DNA of 39,633 nt from an uncultured Bacteroidales bacterium (GTDB lineage Bacteria; Bacteroidota; Bacteroidia; Bacteroidales; F082): NCBI GenBank assembly GCA_900318265.1, contig ONKA01000002.1, positions 39,185 through 78,817 on the forward strand. Reading direction: 5' to 3'. Shown here in pieces: positions 5,368-23,009 of this stretch. The stretch's first letter is position 1; every line of letters begins with the position of its first letter. The notes beneath the pieces are model-generated. The model did no database searches. It was not told the origin of the DNA and was given only the letters and a program-made list of their open reading frames with translations. A program made the translations under genes and the position numbers.

Positions 5368-7920
5368 ATGAAAAACTATCTCATTACACTATTGGCGTTA
5401 GCCTTGACAAGTCTCGCTGTGCATGCCGGTCCGGTCGACCAAGAGACAGCCAGACGTTTAGGGCAGTCGTTTGTGGCGTCCAAATTCGAGCACAAAGCCG
5501 ACTTGCATCTTGTGAAAACTGAGTTCTCCGAGAGGGGAGAAGCCTGCTATTACATCTTCAATGTGGAAAATACAGGTTTTGTCATCATGGCTGCCGACGA
5601 CCACTATCGTCCCATCGTCGGTTATTCCGACGAGGGCAACTTCGACGTCAACGATATGGCTCCCGCTTTGGCCGATTATCTTGAAAGCGTTCGCCACGGC
5701 GTGATGGTGGCCGCTCAAGCCCCTGTCGAGCCTTCCGTGGCGGCCGACTGGGCCATGTTGGAAAAGACGGGTCGCATGGTGTCGCGCCACGGAGGCCGCG
5801 AAGACGAATACCTCGTTGAGACCAAATGGAACCAAAACTATCCTTACAACTATTTTTGCCCTGAAGGCGCCGGTGGCCCTGGTGGCCACTGCTATGCCGG
5901 TTGTGTGGCTACGGCTGCTGCCCAGCAAATGCGTTATTGGAACCATCCCCTGCAAGGCCAAGGCAGTCATACCTATTATCCTGAAGACCATCCGGAATAT
6001 GGCCCCCTGACCGTTAACTTTGGCGAGGCCACTTATGATTGGGAACACATGCCCGTGTCAATCAACCAGAACTCGCCACAGCAGGAGATTGAAGCCGTGG
6101 CACAGCTGATCTATCATGCCGGTGTCAGCGTGGATATGAACTACCGTCCTACGAGCAGTGGCGCCGTTACAGGTAGGCTCTGTGAGACGATGCCCGCCTA
6201 TTTCTTCTATACCAACCACATGGCCAACCTGTATCGTGAGGATTACACTCATGAAGAGTATATGGAGCTGATCATCAATGCCATTGATATGAATTGGCCT
6301 ATGGTGCACCGCGGTGGAGGTCACGCCTACGTTTTGGACGGTTACAACGACGAAGACATGGTACACTTCAACTGGGGCTGGAGTGGCAGCAGCGATGGCT
6401 GGTTCAATGTTGATGACCATGGCTACACCGATGGCGAGAGCGTGATCTACAACTACGTGCCCGCTGAAGTCTATGCTGCTACACCTGCAGCTCCCACCGA
6501 CATCAACGTGGTGCCTTCCAACGACAATTCGTTGACGGCTGCCCTAACTTGGAAAAACCCCACCGTCACCTTGACTGGGGAAACGCTTGCAACCATCGAC
6601 CAAATCGTAGTGGAACGCAACGGACAGGTGGTATATTCCGAAGATAATGTGACGCCTGGTGCTGAGATGAGCATCGTGGACGAGTCGGTACCTTATTTCG
6701 ATGCCTTTGCTTATGCGGTGTATGCCGTCAACAATGGCCGTCGTGGAGCCTCCATCAAGGCCGACAAGGTGTATGTGGGCCCCACCTGCGATTGGAAGAT
6801 CATTATGCAGTCTAACTCGTTCCAAGGCTGGAGAGGGGGAGGCGTCGTCATGTATAGCGTGACGGGAAATGAAATCAGCATGCTGACCCTTAACAGCTCT
6901 ACGCCTCAGTCGTTGGATTTTCCCGTTCCCGTGGGCCGAGTCAGCTTCGGCTGGAAAGCTCCTCGCGCCAATGTCAGCAACCTCTCGTTGGTCATCAAGG
7001 ACGCCGAAGGCAATACGATGTATGCTTATACGGGTTCTTCGGCAGACATGGAAGAGGGCATTTTTCTGGAAGTTAACAATGGATGCGGGAATGAGCCGGT
7101 GTTGCCGCCATATAATGTGAGTGCCGAAGCGGGCGATGAGGCTGTCACCCTGCATTGGGAAGTGGCAGGTGATGATCCGGAATTTGGCTACAACATCTAT
7201 CGTGATGAACAACTTTATGCTATGGTCAACAACCCGTCGGAGCGTTCCTTCGTCGATAACGATTTTGTGAACGGACATTGCTATTTTGTGATGTCTGTCG
7301 GACAGGGAGGCGAGTCGGAACCTTCCAATGAGACCTGTGCCTCTGCGGGCGATTGCATGGCAGCCTACAACTTAGACTATGAATATGTCGGTAGCCTTTA
7401 TAAAATCAAGTTGAAATGGGACCGTCCTGAAGCTAGCGAAGGCCTTTCGGGCTATTACTTGTATCGCAAGGATGGGGAAGACGGCACCTACCAAAGAATC
7501 AAGTTGCTGGGTGCTTCGGCCACCAACTATACCGATAACTCAGCCAATCAGGAAGGTATGTATTACTATCGACTCTACGCCTACTATCGTGAAATCGACT
7601 GCATGTCGGCGCCTGCCACGACGAAAAACGACCCGAACAAATACTACCTGAAAGTGTATTATTCGCCTACCGACGTTGCTGAAAGGGAAGCGGTTGCTAT
7701 CAACGTGTTTCCCAATCCTGCTGATCAAAGCCTGAAGATTGAAGCAGAAGGCATGACGCAGGTCTCGGTGTACAATATGCTAGGTCAACAGGTCTATGCC
7801 TCTGCATGCGAAAGCAATGTGTTGAGTGTCAATGTGTCGGGATGGAGTGAAGGTGTATATTTGATGAAGGTGCAGACCGCTGAAGGCATTGTCTCGCGCC
7901 GCGTTACCATCGTTCACTAA
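5368..7920 (+). CDS. C10-family secreted cysteine protease with T9SS tail
   Basis: I chose the ATG at 5368 rather than an in-frame TTG at 5362, because it begins directly with the signal peptide (MKNYLITLLALALTS, cleavage near VHAG) and sits a normal leader length after the -7 element. The product has 850 residues: propeptide, C10 catalytic domain with Cys179 (YAGCVATAAA) and His319 (GGGHAYVLDGY) followed by NWGWSG, Ig/Fn3-like modules, the shared unnamed domain (GWRGGGVVMYS region), a further Fn3 module (GYYLYRKDGEDGTYQRIK) and a T9SS tail (VFPNPADQSLKIEAEG). The Fn3 module just before the tail is very close to that of the next gene, pointing to a recent duplication or conversion between these two. 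Confidence 0.92.
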   Translation: MKNYLITLLALALTSLAVHAGPVDQETARRLGQSFVASKFEHKADLHLVKTEFSERGEACYYIFNVENTGFVIMAADDHYRPIVGYSDEGNFDVNDMAPALADYLESVRHGVMVAAQAPVEPSVAADWAMLEKTGRMVSRHGGREDEYLVETKWNQNYPYNYFCPEGAGGPGGHCYAGCVATAAAQQMRYWNHPLQGQGSHTYYPEDHPEYGPLTVNFGEATYDWEHMPVSINQNSPQQEIEAVAQLIYHAGVSVDMNYRPTSSGAVTGRLCETMPAYFFYTNHMANLYREDYTHEEYMELIINAIDMNWPMVHRGGGHAYVLDGYNDEDMVHFNWGWSGSSDGWFNVDDHGYTDGESVIYNYVPAEVYAATPAAPTDINVVPSNDNSLTAALTWKNPTVTLTGETLATIDQIVVERNGQVVYSEDNVTPGAEMSIVDESVPYFDAFAYAVYAVNNGRRGASIKADKVYVGPTCDWKIIMQSNSFQGWRGGGVVMYSVTGNEISMLTLNSSTPQSLDFPVPVGRVSFGWKAPRANVSNLSLVIKDAEGNTMYAYTGSSADMEEGIFLEVNNGCGNEPVLPPYNVSAEAGDEAVTLHWEVAGDDPEFGYNIYRDEQLYAMVNNPSERSFVDNDFVNGHCYFVMSVGQGGESEPSNETCASAGDCMAAYNLDYEYVGSLYKIKLKWDRPEASEGLSGYYLYRKDGEDGTYQRIKLLGASATNYTDNSANQEGMYYYRLYAYYREIDCMSAPATTKNDPNKYYLKVYYSPTDVAEREAVAINVFPNPADQSLKIEAEGMTQVSVYNMLGQQVYASACESNVLSVNVSGWSEGVYLMKVQTAEGIVSRRVTIVH

Positions 7921-18423: not shown

Positions 18424-18440
18424 TCATCTGAAAATATGTA

Positions 18441-18474
18441 TGGGGCTGCCATAACATGGCAGCCCCATTTTTTT
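18441..18474. terminator. Terminator after the aminotransferase gene
   Basis: A perfect 12-bp stem (TGGGGCTGCCAT and its complement) with a 3-nt loop is followed by seven Ts on the + strand. It also lies just downstream of the convergent - strand kinase-like gene, where the trailing sequence is only weakly U-rich. Confidence 0.9.
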
Positions 18475-18479
18475 GTCCA

Positions 18480-19313
18480 TCAATGCAAGACTCTCGACAA
18501 CGCAGCACGGAATTGCGGCATGGGGCATTGGGTGTCGCGCTCGACAATGAGTGTTTTTAGTCCGGAGAAAGGCCTGATCTCTTCTTCGATATCCTTGATA
18601 GTGCGGTCGCTGCCGAAATAGGCAGGAGCGAAGCATTTCCAAAATTGGGTCGAGGTGGCCTTGTCCATGTGGAAGACTTCTTTGATGAAGGCCTCGTCGC
18701 TGAGGCAACAGCACAAATAAACCATGCCTACGTCAAAAAGCGGGTTGCCGTAACAGAAGTCGCCGAGATCGATGAAATAGCGTTGGTTGATGGTGAAGAT
18801 GGCGTTAGAGAACTGCAAGTCGCCATGGATTGCTGTATCGGTGTCGGGAACGTCGGCGATGAATTTTGCGATTTTGTCTTTTTCGGCTGTAGTGAAGAAG
18901 GGGTTCTGCTCCAAGAGACGATAATAACGGTCTTTCACGCTTTCAAACTGTGTGGAGTCGACATGTGTGGAGTGGAGTTGGTGACACATTTCAGCGAACT
19001 CTTCGGCATATTGCTGCACCTTTTCGGGATGGTCGGCTGTTGCTCGTGAATAAGAGGTTTTGTCGGGGATCCGGTGGAAACGGATGCCGTAGCGGTTGTC
19101 GTCGGTCACCACATACTCGCCTGGCTCTGGCGTTGGGATACCCATCTGATAGACCTTTCGTGCCAACCTCATCTCGTCCAACGGCTGCTGTATTTTCCCT
19201 GGAAAATAGAGCTTGAGCATGACCGAAGGGTCGGTCTTGTGGTCATAGCTTTCGCCGTTGGCACCACCGCCGGAAAGAACATAGTCATCCAATGAGATCT
19301 TGATGGCTTCCAT
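18480..19313 (-). CDS. Aminoglycoside phosphotransferase (APH)-like kinase
   Basis: With the ATG at 19313 the product has 277 residues; the longer frame to 19340 would need a TTG start and would run into the promoter. The protein has a protein-kinase-like fold: an N-terminal lobe with a Gly-rich loop (LSGGGANGESY) and a Lys in VMLKLYFPG, then the catalytic loop HGDLQFSNAIF and the metal-binding IDLGDFCYGNPLFD. This places it in the APH/choline kinase group, in a branch of standalone proteins common in anaerobes whose substrates are unknown. There is no reason to call it an antibiotic-resistance gene. A -7 element on the - strand (TAATTTTG, 19345-19338) lies 25 nt before the ATG. Confidence 0.8.
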   Translation of the reverse strand: MEAIKISLDDYVLSGGGANGESYDHKTDPSVMLKLYFPGKIQQPLDEMRLARKVYQMGIPTPEPGEYVVTDDNRYGIRFHRIPDKTSYSRATADHPEKVQQYAEEFAEMCHQLHSTHVDSTQFESVKDRYYRLLEQNPFFTTAEKDKIAKFIADVPDTDTAIHGDLQFSNAIFTINQRYFIDLGDFCYGNPLFDVGMVYLCCCLSDEAFIKEVFHMDKATSTQFWKCFAPAYFGSDRTIKDIEEEIRPFSGLKTLIVERDTQCPMPQFRAALSRVLH

Positions 19314-19337
19314 TGACTTGGGAGATGAATTATGCGC

Positions 19338-19393
19338 CAAAATTAGAAAAAAGAATTGGAAATTGTTTGACTAGTCAAGATTTTGTAATTTTG
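19338..19393. promoter_or_regulatory. Divergent promoters for the APH-like gene (-) and the phosphatase operon (+)
   Basis: On the + strand, ATTG (19362-19365), 20 nt of spacer and TAATTTTG (19386-19393) form a good promoter 22 nt before the ATG at 19415. On the - strand an exact TAATTTTG (19345-19338) serves the kinase-like gene, without a clear -33. Both -7 elements have the same sequence. Confidence 0.65.
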
Positions 19394-19414: not shown

Positions 19415-20530
19415 ATGAGAGGCAAGACGTTTTCGGGCAGGTTGAGTTGGAGAATCATCGGCATTGTGTCGGTTATCTCCATCATCGCCCAAATAGCGGT
19501 GTTTCTTACCTTTAAGTGGTTGCAGGATACCCCTATGATGCACCTGGTCATGCTTGCCATTGGGTTGGCCAGCCTCGCTGCCATCTTTTTTGCCTGTCGT
19601 GCCGTCATCAATTACATGACGCGTCCTGTTTCCGAGCTTTCAAAGGCCGTGCTCAAGATGGCCAATGGCAATCTGAAAGCCGTGTTGCCCGAAATCAAGA
19701 GCGAAGATGAGATGCGGCGACTGCACGACAGTTTCCAAACCATGCAAAGTTCGCTCCTTGAATATATCGAAGAACTGAAGACCACTACCGCTGCCAATGA
19801 GCGCATCCAGTCGGACATTGAGTTGGCCCGTAAGATCCAGAGTGGGATGCTCCTTAAAAAGTTCCCTCCTTTCCTGTATGCGATGCTTCATCCTGCCAAG
19901 AGGGTAGGAGGCGACTTGTACGACTTCACCTTGAAGGGCGACCAACTCTATTTTGCCATTGGCGATGTGTCGGGCAAGGGCGTGGCTGCTTCCATTGTGA
20001 TGGCTATCACGAGAGTGTTGCTTCGTTTTGTGGTGGGAATGGGCCTGCCTTTGGACGAGACCTTGCTTCGTATTAATAACAGCTTTAGTGAAGCCAACGA
20101 AACGGGTATGTTCGTGACGCTGTTTGTGGCCCGCCTCGACCTGAAGACAGGACACATGGACTATTGCAATGCCGGACACAACCAAATCCTAATCATTCCT
20201 CCTGACAGCGAGCCTTATTTTCTTCACAGTAAAGCTAATGTTGCAGTCGGGGTGATGTCTGGTTTTCAATATGAAGCGGAGCAAATCGAATTGAAACGAG
20301 GCACCCGCATCATCGCCTATACTGATGGCGTGACCGAGGCTGAAAAGGCGGATCAAAGTCAATATGGGGAAGAACGGCTGATGGCATGGGCAAAAAGTAT
20401 CGTAGAGACGTTCCCCGAAACGACTGCACAGGAAAAAGACGTCGTGGATAATCTATACGATTCAGTGCAAGCCTTTGTGGAAGGCAATCCGCAGAATGAC
20501 GATTTAACCATAGTCAGTTTGAAGTTATGA
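19415..20530 (+). CDS. Membrane HAMP-SpoIIE (PP2C-type) serine phosphatase, RsbU-like
   Basis: I chose the ATG at 19415 because the longer frame (TTG at 19313) runs through the promoter. The product has 371 residues: two transmembrane segments (about 12-31 and 40-63) with only a short loop between them, a HAMP domain (PVSELSKAVLKMANGNLKA onward), a coiled-coil linker ending ELARKIQSGML, and a SpoIIE/PP2C phosphatase domain with metal-binding motifs GGDLYD (about 165), GDVSGKG (about 187), NAGHN (about 252), TDGVTEA (about 303) and DDLTIV near the end. Such enzymes dephosphorylate STAS-domain antagonists. The STAS and kinase partners follow directly, so this is the likely signal input of a partner-switching module. 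The lack of a periplasmic sensor domain suggests sensing within the membrane or by HAMP contacts. Confidence 0.92.
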   Translation: MRGKTFSGRLSWRIIGIVSVISIIAQIAVFLTFKWLQDTPMMHLVMLAIGLASLAAIFFACRAVINYMTRPVSELSKAVLKMANGNLKAVLPEIKSEDEMRRLHDSFQTMQSSLLEYIEELKTTTAANERIQSDIELARKIQSGMLLKKFPPFLYAMLHPAKRVGGDLYDFTLKGDQLYFAIGDVSGKGVAASIVMAITRVLLRFVVGMGLPLDETLLRINNSFSEANETGMFVTLFVARLDLKTGHMDYCNAGHNQILIIPPDSEPYFLHSKANVAVGVMSGFQYEAEQIELKRGTRIIAYTDGVTEAEKADQSQYGEERLMAWAKSIVETFPETTAQEKDVVDNLYDSVQAFVEGNPQNDDLTIVSLKL

Positions 20531-20580
20531 GTTGTAGGGATGTCGCAGTGCGGCAGCCGTCATTTGAAAAAGAAGAAAAC

Positions 20581-20985
20581 ATGATGAAGAAACGTTTTAA
20601 TCCAATAACGGACCGAAGCAGCGAGATTGTCGCCTTCCTGATGGCCTCGCCCGACATGCCCAAGGATGAAGACCTGCGTTTCAAGATTGAGCTTTCCATT
20701 GAGGAAGCCGTCGAAAACGTGGTTCAATATGCCTACGAAGGCGGTATCGGCTGGCTTGAGGCAGGCACTAGTCTGGATGACAAGTCGTTGATTCTCACGA
20801 TAGAATTGCGAGATGCAGGTATGCCCTTCAACCCCCTTGAGAAAGACGACCCCGACATCACGCTTTCAGCCGGTGAACGTCCCGTCGGGGGACTGGGTAT
20901 TTATATTTGTAAGAGCATGATGGATAGCATTAGCTATCGGTATGAAGATGGGAATAATGTTCTGGTTATGAGTAAGAGAGTTTAG
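20581..20985 (+). CDS. RsbW-like anti-sigma serine kinase / GHKL ATP-binding protein
   Basis: The product has 134 residues. An in-frame ATG at 20527 overlaps the previous stop (ATGA), but the 18 extra residues look unlike the family, whose first strand begins at KKRFNPI; I prefer 20581, where AAGAAG precedes the ATG. The GHKL ATPase boxes are visible: N box IEEAVENVVQYAY, G1 box RDAGMPFNP, and G2 box GGLGIYICKSM. RsbW/SpoIIAB proteins phosphorylate a STAS antagonist and hold a target protein inactive. Position between the phosphatase and the STAS gene makes it the switch kinase. Its held target is unknown, and no sigma factor gene is present in the window. Confidence 0.85.
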   Translation: MMKKRFNPITDRSSEIVAFLMASPDMPKDEDLRFKIELSIEEAVENVVQYAYEGGIGWLEAGTSLDDKSLILTIELRDAGMPFNPLEKDDPDITLSAGERPVGGLGIYICKSMMDSISYRYEDGNNVLVMSKRV

Positions 20986-21046
20986 CGTCATAGGGCTTCC
21001 ACAATGTGACAGCCGATTTAGTAGCGATGAAAAACAATAATAAAAT

Positions 21047-21349
21047 ATGAAGGTAACAATAAACAAACAAAACGAAAAGACCCTTGTTGTGCTTGACGGG
21101 CGCATCGACAGCACCAACGCCGACCAGTTCCAACAAGACATCGCCTCATTGATGGAAGGTGAAAAGCCCGACATCGACATCGATTGCACGAACATGACCT
21201 ATACCTCGTCGCAAGGTCTCCGTGTGTTCCTGCTCTTGCAGAAAAGCGTCATGGCTCGCGATGGCAAGATGGTGTTGCGCAACATGAATCCACGTGTGAA
21301 GGAGGTCTTTGACATCACTGGATTCTCCAATATCATCACCATAATCTAA
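21047..21349 (+). CDS. STAS-domain anti-sigma factor antagonist (RsbV/SpoIIAA-like)
   Basis: A single STAS domain of 100 residues. MKVTINKQNEKTLVVLDGRI and the helix DSTNADQFQQDI match the fold. The phosphorylation site lies in TYTSSQGLRVF, where Ser55 (or Ser54) corresponds to the regulated serine of SpoIIAA/RsbV. Unphosphorylated, it should bind the upstream kinase and free that kinase's target; phosphorylated, it lets go. It sits 61 nt after the kinase gene and 11 nt before the (p)ppGpp synthetase gene on the same strand. Confidence 0.9.
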   Translation: MKVTINKQNEKTLVVLDGRIDSTNADQFQQDIASLMEGEKPDIDIDCTNMTYTSSQGLRVFLLLQKSVMARDGKMVLRNMNPRVKEVFDITGFSNIITII

Positions 21350-21360
21350 TATAGGGTATT

Positions 21361-22440
21361 ATGAAACTCGATATGCACTGTGAGATGCTTCTCAGCGAGT
21401 ATCACGAGAAACTTCCCATTTATGAGAAGATGAAAACCGTGGTTCTCGATTTGTTGCGTAACTGCCTCGACAAGAACAACATCCTTGTTTCGGGTCTTGA
21501 AGCCCGTGTCAAGTCGGAGCAAAGCCTGATTGGGAAGCTGGAGCTGAAAGGCAACAAATATCATACGTTGGAAGATATTACCGATATCCTTGGCGCACGC
21601 ATCATTACCTACTACAGCGATGAAGTTGACATCATTTCCGCCTTGGCCGAAAAGATGTTTGAAATCGACTGGGCTAACTCCGTCGACAAGCGCAAGATGT
21701 TGGAGATTGACCGTTTCGGCTATATGTCGCTGCACTATATCTGCCGTATCCCCGAGACTCTGTACAAAGACCCTGAACTGCCTCAACTTAACCAAATGCA
21801 CTTCGAGCTACAGATGCGAAGCACCTTGCAGCACGTATGGGCCAACATGTACCACTACATCGGTTATAAGAGTGATGTGGAAATTCCCATTGAATATCAG
21901 CGCAATATGAGCCGTCTCGCCGGAATTTTGGAGTTGGCTGACGAGCAGTTTAACCGTATCCGCAAGGATGTCAACAATTACCGTCGCAATGTGCAGTCGA
22001 TGGTGGCTTCGGGCAACTTCGACGAGGTGCCGCTCAACGGTGATACATTCCGTAGCTTCCTTAAACTCAATCCTTTCCGTAATCTTGTCGACAAGATTGC
22101 GGCCATCAACCAAGGAGAGGTCTACGAGGACAGTCTCATGCCATATTACAACGTGCTGCTTCACATGGAGATGAAGACAATCGGCGACATTGTCAGAATG
22201 ATCAACGAAAACAAAGAAAGCGCCTACCAGTTGGCACTGCTCCAGTTGGCTGGCACTGGTTTGGATATTGTGGCCTATTCGGTGGCACTTCAAAACCTCT
22301 GCATCGTCACCATCCTCAAGAAAGGCTACGGTGAGGCCGGATTGATGAGGCTGTTTGATGCGCTTTATGGCGAAAACGAATACCATAAGCAACGTGCCAA
22401 ACGCATCGTTGAGCAGGCCCAAAAAATCAATCTGATCTAG
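21361..22440 (+). CDS. (p)ppGpp synthetase, RelA/SpoT synthetase domain without hydrolase
   Basis: The product has 359 residues. The synthetase motifs of the RelA/SpoT family are complete: R49-V-K51-S-x-x-S-x3-K59 for ATP binding, D75ILGAR80 for metal binding, GYMSLHYI (120-127) as the GTP-stacking G-loop, and ELQMRS (149-154), with H165 later. It should transfer pyrophosphate from ATP to GDP or GTP. There is no N-terminal HD hydrolase and no TGS or ACT domain, so it is a small-alarmone-synthetase-like protein with an extra C-terminal half (about 190-359), predicted helical and of unknown role. The matching hydrolase gene begins 5 nt downstream. Confidence 0.88.
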   Translation: MKLDMHCEMLLSEYHEKLPIYEKMKTVVLDLLRNCLDKNNILVSGLEARVKSEQSLIGKLELKGNKYHTLEDITDILGARIITYYSDEVDIISALAEKMFEIDWANSVDKRKMLEIDRFGYMSLHYICRIPETLYKDPELPQLNQMHFELQMRSTLQHVWANMYHYIGYKSDVEIPIEYQRNMSRLAGILELADEQFNRIRKDVNNYRRNVQSMVASGNFDEVPLNGDTFRSFLKLNPFRNLVDKIAAINQGEVYEDSLMPYYNVLLHMEMKTIGDIVRMINENKESAYQLALLQLAGTGLDIVAYSVALQNLCIVTILKKGYGEAGLMRLFDALYGENEYHKQRAKRIVEQAQKINLI

Positions 22441-22445
22441 TAACC

Positions 22446-23009
22446 ATGAACAACCCATTAGAAACTACTTTCTTCGACAAAGCTGTGAAGTTTGCCACCG
22501 AAGCCCATAGTGGAACAGAGAGGCGCGGCAAAGGCTATCCCTATATCATCCATCCCATGGAGGCCGCCAGCATCGTGGCTACGATAACCAATGACCAGGA
22601 AATGCTGGCTGCGGCCATCTTGCACGATACTGTCGAAGACACTGATGTGACCATCGAGCAGATTCGGGAACAGTTTGGCGATAGGGTGGCTGAACTCGTC
22701 CAGCATGAGACGGCACCTATGGATGAAAGCTTGACATGGCGTGAGCGCAAGGCCATTCAGGTCAAACAATTGTGTGATGCGCCATACGACAGCAAGGTGG
22801 TCGCCCTTGGCGACAAACTCTCCAACATGCGTGGCATCGCCTTGGATTACCGTCAGGTCGGCGACGAGGTATGGAGCCTTTTCCATGCCCCGAATGGCAA
22901 ACCCGATGTGGAATGGTACTATCGTTCATTAGCCGACGCCATGGCGGTACTGTCAGAGACGCTTCCTTATCAGGAGTTTGTCAGGCTGCTTGAAAAGGTT
23001 TTCGGTTAA
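22446..23009 (+). CDS. HD-domain (p)ppGpp hydrolase, MESH1-like
   Basis: The product has 187 residues. HSGTERRGKGYPYIIHP (21-37) matches the hydrolase N-terminus of RelA/SpoT and MESH1 proteins. The metal site is H36, H60-D61 in LHDTVEDT and D123 in GDKLSNMR, with the E64-D65 pair also conserved. It should remove the 3'-pyrophosphate from (p)ppGpp. It is a hydrolase-only protein encoded 5 nt after a synthetase-only protein, so making and breaking the alarmone are split between two neighbouring genes. Its stop abuts the stop of the convergent muramidase gene. Confidence 0.87.
   Translation: MNNPLETTFFDKAVKFATEAHSGTERRGKGYPYIIHPMEAASIVATITNDQEMLAAAILHDTVEDTDVTIEQIREQFGDRVAELVQHETAPMDESLTWRERKAIQVKQLCDAPYDSKVVALGDKLSNMRGIALDYRQVGDEVWSLFHAPNGKPDVEWYYRSLADAMAVLSETLPYQEFVRLLEKVFG

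Follow-up and report, generated by a model that had tools for sequence, protein, structure and literature searches.

A partner-switching gene cluster joined to a predicted (p)ppGpp synthetase and hydrolase in Bacteroidales, and its possible role in setting alarmone level

We analyzed a 39,633-nucleotide stretch (hereafter the window, whose numbering is used throughout) of an uncultured Bacteroidales bacterium of family F082 (assembly GCA_900318265.1, contig ONKA01000002.1, positions 39,185 to 78,817, forward strand), in which five genes on the + strand unite the parts of a partner switch with two predicted alarmone enzymes. These genes encode a 371-residue membrane HAMP-SpoIIE (PP2C) phosphatase (P; 19415..20530; Pfam SpoIIE 1.6e-43, HAMP 2.5e-09), whose start is an ATG within a longer open reading frame (ORF) of 405 residues; an RsbW-type serine kinase (K; 20527..20985; HATPase_c_2 2.6e-18), which, judged from relatives, probably begins further in than annotated; a 100-residue protein made of a STAS domain alone (S; 21047..21349; STAS 2.2e-17) with a TSSQG motif; a predicted RelA-type (p)ppGpp synthetase (SAS; 21361..22440; RelA_SpoT 2.7e-15); and a predicted MESH1-type (p)ppGpp hydrolase (SAH; 22446..23009; HD_4 6.4e-22), the end of which meets the end of a convergent NamZ gene. 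All five proteins match Pfam above the family cut-offs. A previous sequence-only reading had placed five same-strand genes with short gaps here, in agreement with the ORFs found and with the measured spacing (P-K −4, K-S 61, S-SAS 11, and SAS-SAH 5 bases). Its list of parts was right for these five and overlooked a recurrent sixth gene, APH, as well as the precedent of partner switches that act on diguanylate cyclases. APH encodes an APH-fold kinase of the NCBIfam family TIGR02172 (18480..19313, − strand; 231.2 bits, cut-off 228.2) and is divergent from P; its ORF covers 18480-19340, with the start ATG at 19313 picked from relatives. A strong terminator-like hairpin of 13 pairs (18440-18468) lies between the APH gene and an aminotransferase gene.

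The catalytic motifs had been read as intact, and the residues that we chose are identical in all aligned relatives (58 P, 71 K, 73 S, 81 SAS, and 74 SAH, window included). In P, these are D201, D218, D338, D396, and D397 (58/58, numbered on the 405-residue ORF), presumably the metal-binding site of the SpoIIE/PP2C phosphatase, and in K they are E60, N64, D96, G98, G121, G122, and G124 (71/71), which we take to be the N box and G boxes of a HATPase-type serine kinase. S54, S55, and G57 of S were invariant in 73/73, Ser55 being aligned with the serine of RsbV that we take to be the phosphorylated one, and the invariant H36, H60, D61, E64, D65, and N127 of SAH (74/74) presumably form the metal site of its HD domain. 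The best PDB match of S was an anti-sigma-B factor antagonist chain (1.8e-08), while SAH matched 4yf1 (1.6e-26) and 5vxa, a chain named MESH1 (4.3e-17). From these sequence features, we infer that the proteins carry the enzyme activities that their names imply.

Judged by eye, P has two membrane helices joined by a very short loop, so that it would lack an outer sensor domain, and a domain scan of the window protein returned no sensor match. Across 63 P proteins from 81 related loci, 22 were shorter than 450 residues, like that of the window, and 39 had at least 560. Two long unfused forms were scanned, one with a dCache-type sensor (locus L105) and one with HAMP and SpoIIE only (L086); a fusion of P and K (written P+K) in locus L128 also bears a dCache-type sensor. 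The best NCBIfam match of P was SiaA, at 45.1 bits against an equivalog cut-off of 700.

The host assembly comprises 2,975,802 bases in 50 contigs and is 89% complete, and its nearest relatives among the matches listed are metagenome-assembled genomes from rumen and abomasum, with SAS 97-98% identical. The host also encodes two long RelA/SpoT proteins (ORFs of 797 and 735 residues), so the cluster comes on top of the pair that Bacteroidia usually have, named Rel and RshB (PMC3153485, PMC6994654).

The association of the five genes extends well beyond the window. Species-representative genomes were scanned with an SAS alignment, yielding at least 595 matching stretches, at least 569 of which encode relatives; the best 80 were kept and, with the window and 11 loci from other genomes, gave 92 loci, or 81 after identical SAS domains were dropped. 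In 63 of these, SAS is flanked by 3.5 kb or more on either side. Because loci were picked by SAS similarity, the sample does not tell the linkage frequency in more distant relatives. All five genes were present in 46 of the 63 loci (P in 49, K in 57, S in 56, SAH in 61), and further families carry the set in different arrangements, so the conservation across Bacteroidales that the sequence-only reading had proposed to check was borne out. Separation of the switch genes from the enzyme genes, which would have spoken against it, is the exception: no K was seen in six of the 63 loci, and in the genome of one of these (L027 of genome G091), K lies 7.8 kb upstream. SAH was downstream of SAS on the same strand in 75/75 loci where it was found, the distances of the five genes are correlated with one another (0.61-0.85), and the same members are kept in at least four gene orders.

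Such a neighborhood could also have come about by coincidence and been retained through vertical descent in a small number of clades. A single flanking context, representing one chromosomal place shared by descent, accounts for 22 of the 81 loci, and the number of contexts holding all five genes depends on the setting, from 21 of 31 at the lenient one (46 loci) to 20, 7, and 12 (40 loci) and 9 (31 loci) at four others, the strictest count being 7. We nevertheless consider coincidence very improbable, as the contexts and orders are varied, genes have become fused, and three other families carry the set. The gene association is real and conserved, and it has been re-assembled in several places and orders.

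Among 99 genomes searched in the host genus, SAS was found in 55, SAH in 55, and both in 54. A close K (at least 56% identical) was present in 38/99, and all 38 carried SAS (Fisher 1.9e-14, relatedness not being corrected for). Of the 55 SAS-positive genomes, 34 have K upstream at a distance of 302-470 bases and on the same strand, and 11 more have a kinase domain in an open frame of 484-807 residues located 2.5-3.3 kb downstream; in the three of these that we read (L028, L128, L129), P and K are fused and the genes are arranged as SAS-SAH-APH-[P+K]-S. The remaining ten include loci at contig ends and switch-free ones. In the order, 7/247 genomes matched SAS at 1e-25, six of them at full length with the C-terminal domain: the host genome and G014 from the genus, G646 and G747 from a second family, G806 from a third, and G779 from a fourth. 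All four full-length copies outside the genus are accompanied by P, K, S, SAH, and APH, in the orders K-P-S-SAS-[SAH+APH] (twice), [P+K]-S-SAS-APH-SAH, and SAS-SAH-APH-[P+K]-S, although G646 and G747 correspond to L098 and L105 and are thus not independent of the 63 loci. The seventh match (G614) is limited to the catalytic part, with no switch gene alongside. In the phylum, 10/395 genomes matched SAS at 1e-20, one being the host genome, and at the nine other loci, all outside the order, no matches to P, K, S, SAH, or APH were found.

APH was near SAS in 44/63 loci and fused to SAH in 13/63. Over the 81 loci, it was placed divergently upstream in 28, downstream on the same strand in 16, and upstream on the same strand in two, and its distances track those of the other members less closely (0.34-0.52, compared with 0.61-0.85 among the five). 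APH was observed as a companion of the alarmone pair in, for example, the window, L028, L026, and L105.

Other neighbors recur less often. ABC transporter genes of one cluster lie within about five genes of SAS in 11/63 loci, and a gene from a cluster whose tested member is YegS/diacylglycerol-kinase-like was present in 8/63. In L041, L068, L071, and L076, flanking ABC transporter genes have family-3 solute-binding domains, and a YegS/diacylglycerol-kinase-like gene stands between S and SAS. L026, L027, and L109 have a neighbor gene from a cluster with a tested member matching Y_phosphatase3 (PF13350). In three loci from other genera of the family (L167, L169, L170), relatives of K sit amid transport-system genes, including one for a 408-residue protein with a STAS-like stretch.

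SAS consists of a RelQ-like part (residues 1-207) and a separate helical C-terminal domain (about residues 221-359). RelA_SpoT was its sole Pfam match at a threshold of 0.01, with no diguanylate cyclase domain, and SAS has the RelA_SpoT synthetase fold by which small alarmone synthetases (RelQ/RelP) are recognized; against the RelQ (YjbM) equivalog it scored 43.8 bits, below the cut-off of 320. In the structure model, the C-terminal domain is a confident, independent helical unit with no clear fold match, and no Pfam TPR match was detected in it at 0.01. No counterpart was detected in 13 solitary SAS relatives (best E 0.049). Given these properties, the domain is a candidate docking site. An apparent S-SAS fusion in L074, with an SAS frame of 502 residues, was rejected: S is intact in its own frame (6690-6992), and the SAS frame is merely open upstream.

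The solitary relatives also bear on another explanation, in which SAS would be a toxic synthetase of the toxSAS type and SAH its hydrolase antitoxin, with the switch arming or disarming SAS, perhaps against phages. Relatives L132, L134, L124, and L166 were met in a phage-plasmid of Bacteroides, a filamentous phage of Vibrio, and two loci resembling, by eye, type I restriction or similar systems, and the PADLOC candidate PDC-S33 matches at 1e-13 and the phage family phrog_9640 at 5e-61; it is possible that the solitary relatives are defense genes. The strict placement of SAH downstream of SAS on the same strand would suit an antitoxin, and in Cellulomonas marina, a hydrolase antitoxin is encoded alongside FaRel (PMC11782079). 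When viral_contigs was scanned with the Bacteroides finegoldii relative, 11 pattern matches but no relative turned up, this being a single-protein query that reaches close relatives only. The cluster resembles toxSAS loci (FaRel with its hydrolase antitoxin, CapRel) in placing synthetase and hydrolase in one operon, as for FaRel, and differs from them in adding a partner switch and in an SAS fold that is closer to RelQ/RelP. On balance, we regard a toxin-antitoxin role as improbable.

Transcription of the cluster was considered from promoter-like and terminator-like sites. Bacteroidetes promoters differ from the sigma-70 type and have a -7 element with the consensus TAnnTTTG. The one good promoter that had been proposed for the genes was only partly recovered: the sigma-70-type site upstream of P is weak (9/12), and a Bacteroidetes -7 element, TAATTTTG, occurs at 19386..19393 (+ strand), 21 bases before P and with TTTG at 19366, a spacing slightly short for the consensus. 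A gapped promoter pattern had no match at this element. A second copy of TAATTTTG, facing APH, occupies 19338..19345 on the − strand, and another TAnnTTTG lies inside K (20902-20909), while none occurs between S and SAS in the window. In relatives, TAnnTTTG was present no more than 150 bases ahead of the first gene in 38/80 cases, compared with 11/281 for inner genes and 0/72 for inner SAS; since most of the sequence ahead of inner genes is coding and gene starts were assigned mechanically, part of this contrast reflects composition.

A terminator or promoter between the STAS and synthetase genes, together with no effect of the switch on (p)ppGpp, had been named as a potential objection to one functional system. 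No + strand terminator-like site was found between any two of the five genes in the window, but the strongest sigma-70-like match (11/12) is located at 21309-21336, inside the end of S and just ahead of SAS. Given the difference between Bacteroidetes and sigma-70-type promoters and a site count near the shuffle level (nine sites, compared with 7.3 in shuffles), this match is probably due to chance. Where S is upstream, the S-SAS gap, with mechanically set starts, is at most 20 bases in 54 of 69 loci and above 150 in nine, a count that omits four loci whose S frame is not ahead of that of SAS. One transcript across the cluster is what we infer.

The three switch proteins belong to the same families as RsbU-RsbW-RsbV and SpoIIE-SpoIIAB-SpoIIAA of Firmicutes, which they resemble in both domains and motifs, and partner-switch families normally signal through the phosphorylation state of the STAS protein; in other bacteria, a switch of this kind usually governs gene expression. 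The difference lies in the sigma factor. As the sequence-only reading had noted, there is no sigma factor at the locus, none being found among eight window proteins scanned, and the model for SigB/F/G sigma factors (TIGR02980) was above the NCBI cut-off in 0/99 genus genomes, compared with 1/14 controls.

It could still be that the genes form one operon in which the switch targets the main sigma factor or some other regulator, with the alarmone enzymes merely co-expressed for the same stress response. The operon-like spacing speaks for this, as do weaker TIGR02980 matches, to other sigma-70-type proteins, in 98/99 genus genomes, the existence of switch modules away from SAS, and the few SAS-SAH pairs that lack a local switch. 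In six loci (L138-L143), for example, P+K fusions were observed away from SAS, with an S gene next in five of the six, and those of L139-L141 adjoin a periplasmic binding protein similar, by eye, to those that bind thiamine precursors. However, a close K never occurred without SAS in the genus, even though the sigma-70-type proteins are also present in SAS-free genomes, and co-expression alone does not predict that the same members would be re-assembled in at least four orders. We judge a different target to be unlikely, while taking it more seriously than the toxin-antitoxin explanation.

Several known systems help to place the cluster. In Pseudomonas aeruginosa, unphosphorylated SiaC binds and activates the diguanylate cyclase SiaD, which phosphorylation of SiaC prevents (PMC8457831; PMC7647112), and HsbA/HsbD and BgrV/BgrR are further partner-switch systems of this kind (PMC8457831). 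SiaABCD resembles the cluster in that one operon combines a SpoIIE/PP2C-type phosphatase and a kinase with a STAS-like protein and the synthetase of a second messenger. Its output is a diguanylate cyclase, whereas the cluster has a RelA-type synthetase with a partner hydrolase and an APH-fold kinase; in addition, SiaC is described as a DUF1987 protein (PMC8457831), while S and K match Pfam STAS and HATPase_c_2. The CapK-CapS regulators of anti-phage operons likewise tie an RsbW-like kinase and a STAS protein to a non-sigma output, but CapS is a winged-helix DNA-binding repressor (PMC13373217), unlike the lone STAS domain of S. On the enzyme side, the Treponema denticola synthetase Tde-SAS (DsRel, SAS-TPR) has a C-terminal TPR extension that acts as a brake and a separate hydrolase, Tde-SAH (PMC10434055). 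This pair is similar to SAS and SAH in having an extended synthetase and a separate hydrolase, but its extension is a TPR, from which the C-terminal domain of SAS may differ; its locus tags (TDE1711 and TDE1690) are not adjacent numbers, and the main text of that paper contains none of the words "operon", "upstream", and "SpoIIE". By titles and abstract openings of the papers listed from the open-licence literature, no description of a partner switch with a (p)ppGpp synthetase was found. The cluster would be a case of partner switching onto a predicted second-messenger enzyme, and it is neither a member of SiaABCD nor a known sigma-factor switch.

The sequence-only reading had suggested that the switch controls alarmone level, and this is the explanation that we prefer: we think it fairly probable that the locus is a dedicated partner switch that works like SiaABCD, with the synthetase as output, and that it sets how much of a pyrophosphorylated nucleotide, in all likelihood (p)ppGpp, is present. 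Speaking for this are the linkage of the five genes across varied contexts, orders, and families, the restriction of the close K to SAS-positive genomes, the short S-SAS gaps, the correlated distances, the absence of SigB/F/G matches above the cut-off in the genus, and the SiaC precedent. P would receive a signal at the membrane and dephosphorylate S, K would re-phosphorylate it, and the phosphorylation state of S would decide whether the switch engages SAS. Unphosphorylated S may bind SAS via the C-terminal domain and stimulate synthesis, as SiaC does with SiaD, while SAH would remove the product such that the signal drops once S is re-phosphorylated; the APH-fold kinase presumably joins at some step. 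That the switch touches SAS, through which protein it would do so, and in which direction it would act are all putative here. The SiaC precedent, shared by HsbA/HsbD and BgrV/BgrR, favors S as the effector touching SAS, but given that partial correlations lean slightly toward K and that a comparison of K-less SAS copies yielded nothing, this step is a guess by analogy.

A number of observations weigh against a dedicated switch on SAS. Partial correlations of gene distances do not single out one contact, and the S-SAS value is weak (0.13) compared with K-SAS (0.30), which speaks against S as the contact. The earlier suggestion that K or S binds the C-terminal half of SAS gained no positive support from a divergence test, in which faster change was expected upon loss of the partner: C-terminal relative to N-terminal divergence of K-less SAS copies fell within the spread of the others. 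That test had ten loci labelled K-less, five of which remain after removal of L027 (K further upstream), L060 (K on another contig), and L037, L083, and L096 (which end near SAS). SAS-SAH pairs without a local K or S occur in G014 and G041, which have an ABC transporter upstream instead, and pairs without a local switch in L094, L099, and G562, while L102 lacks both the switch and SAH. In G014 and G562, a P+K gene accompanied by S is present at another place in the genome and could act in trans. Conversely, P+K genes with S are also present in SAS-free genomes (G089, G498), indicating that the switch is modular and that its type serves other outputs. In nine loci, S and SAS are 853-1112 bases apart with another gene between them, and SAS could have a separate start at the sigma-70-like match within the end of S. 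Finally, a toxin role for SAS, though improbable, would fit the hydrolase antitoxin known for a toxic synthetase and the phage and plasmid settings of solitary SAS relatives.

To our knowledge, the routes by which (p)ppGpp is controlled are the ribosome, direct binding of metabolites or proteins to long Rel enzymes, and transcription of small synthetases. We lean, by a little over an even chance, toward a broader interpretation in which a SpoIIE-RsbW-STAS switch directly sets alarmone level via a split synthetase/hydrolase pair, independently of ribosome-bound Rel, as a six-part module distributed across several Bacteroidales families that, in some species with amino-acid-type ABC transporters, would feed membrane nutrient sensing into (p)ppGpp. 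If this holds, rumen and gut bacteria would have a route from a membrane signal to the alarmone with its own synthetase and hydrolase, and a second nucleotide messenger would join sigma factors and c-di-GMP as targets of partner switching. The small, self-contained set of genes is amenable to tests with purified proteins. A conserved unit of switch and alarmone enzymes in gut and rumen Bacteroidales suggests a previously undescribed way of toggling the (p)ppGpp alarm.

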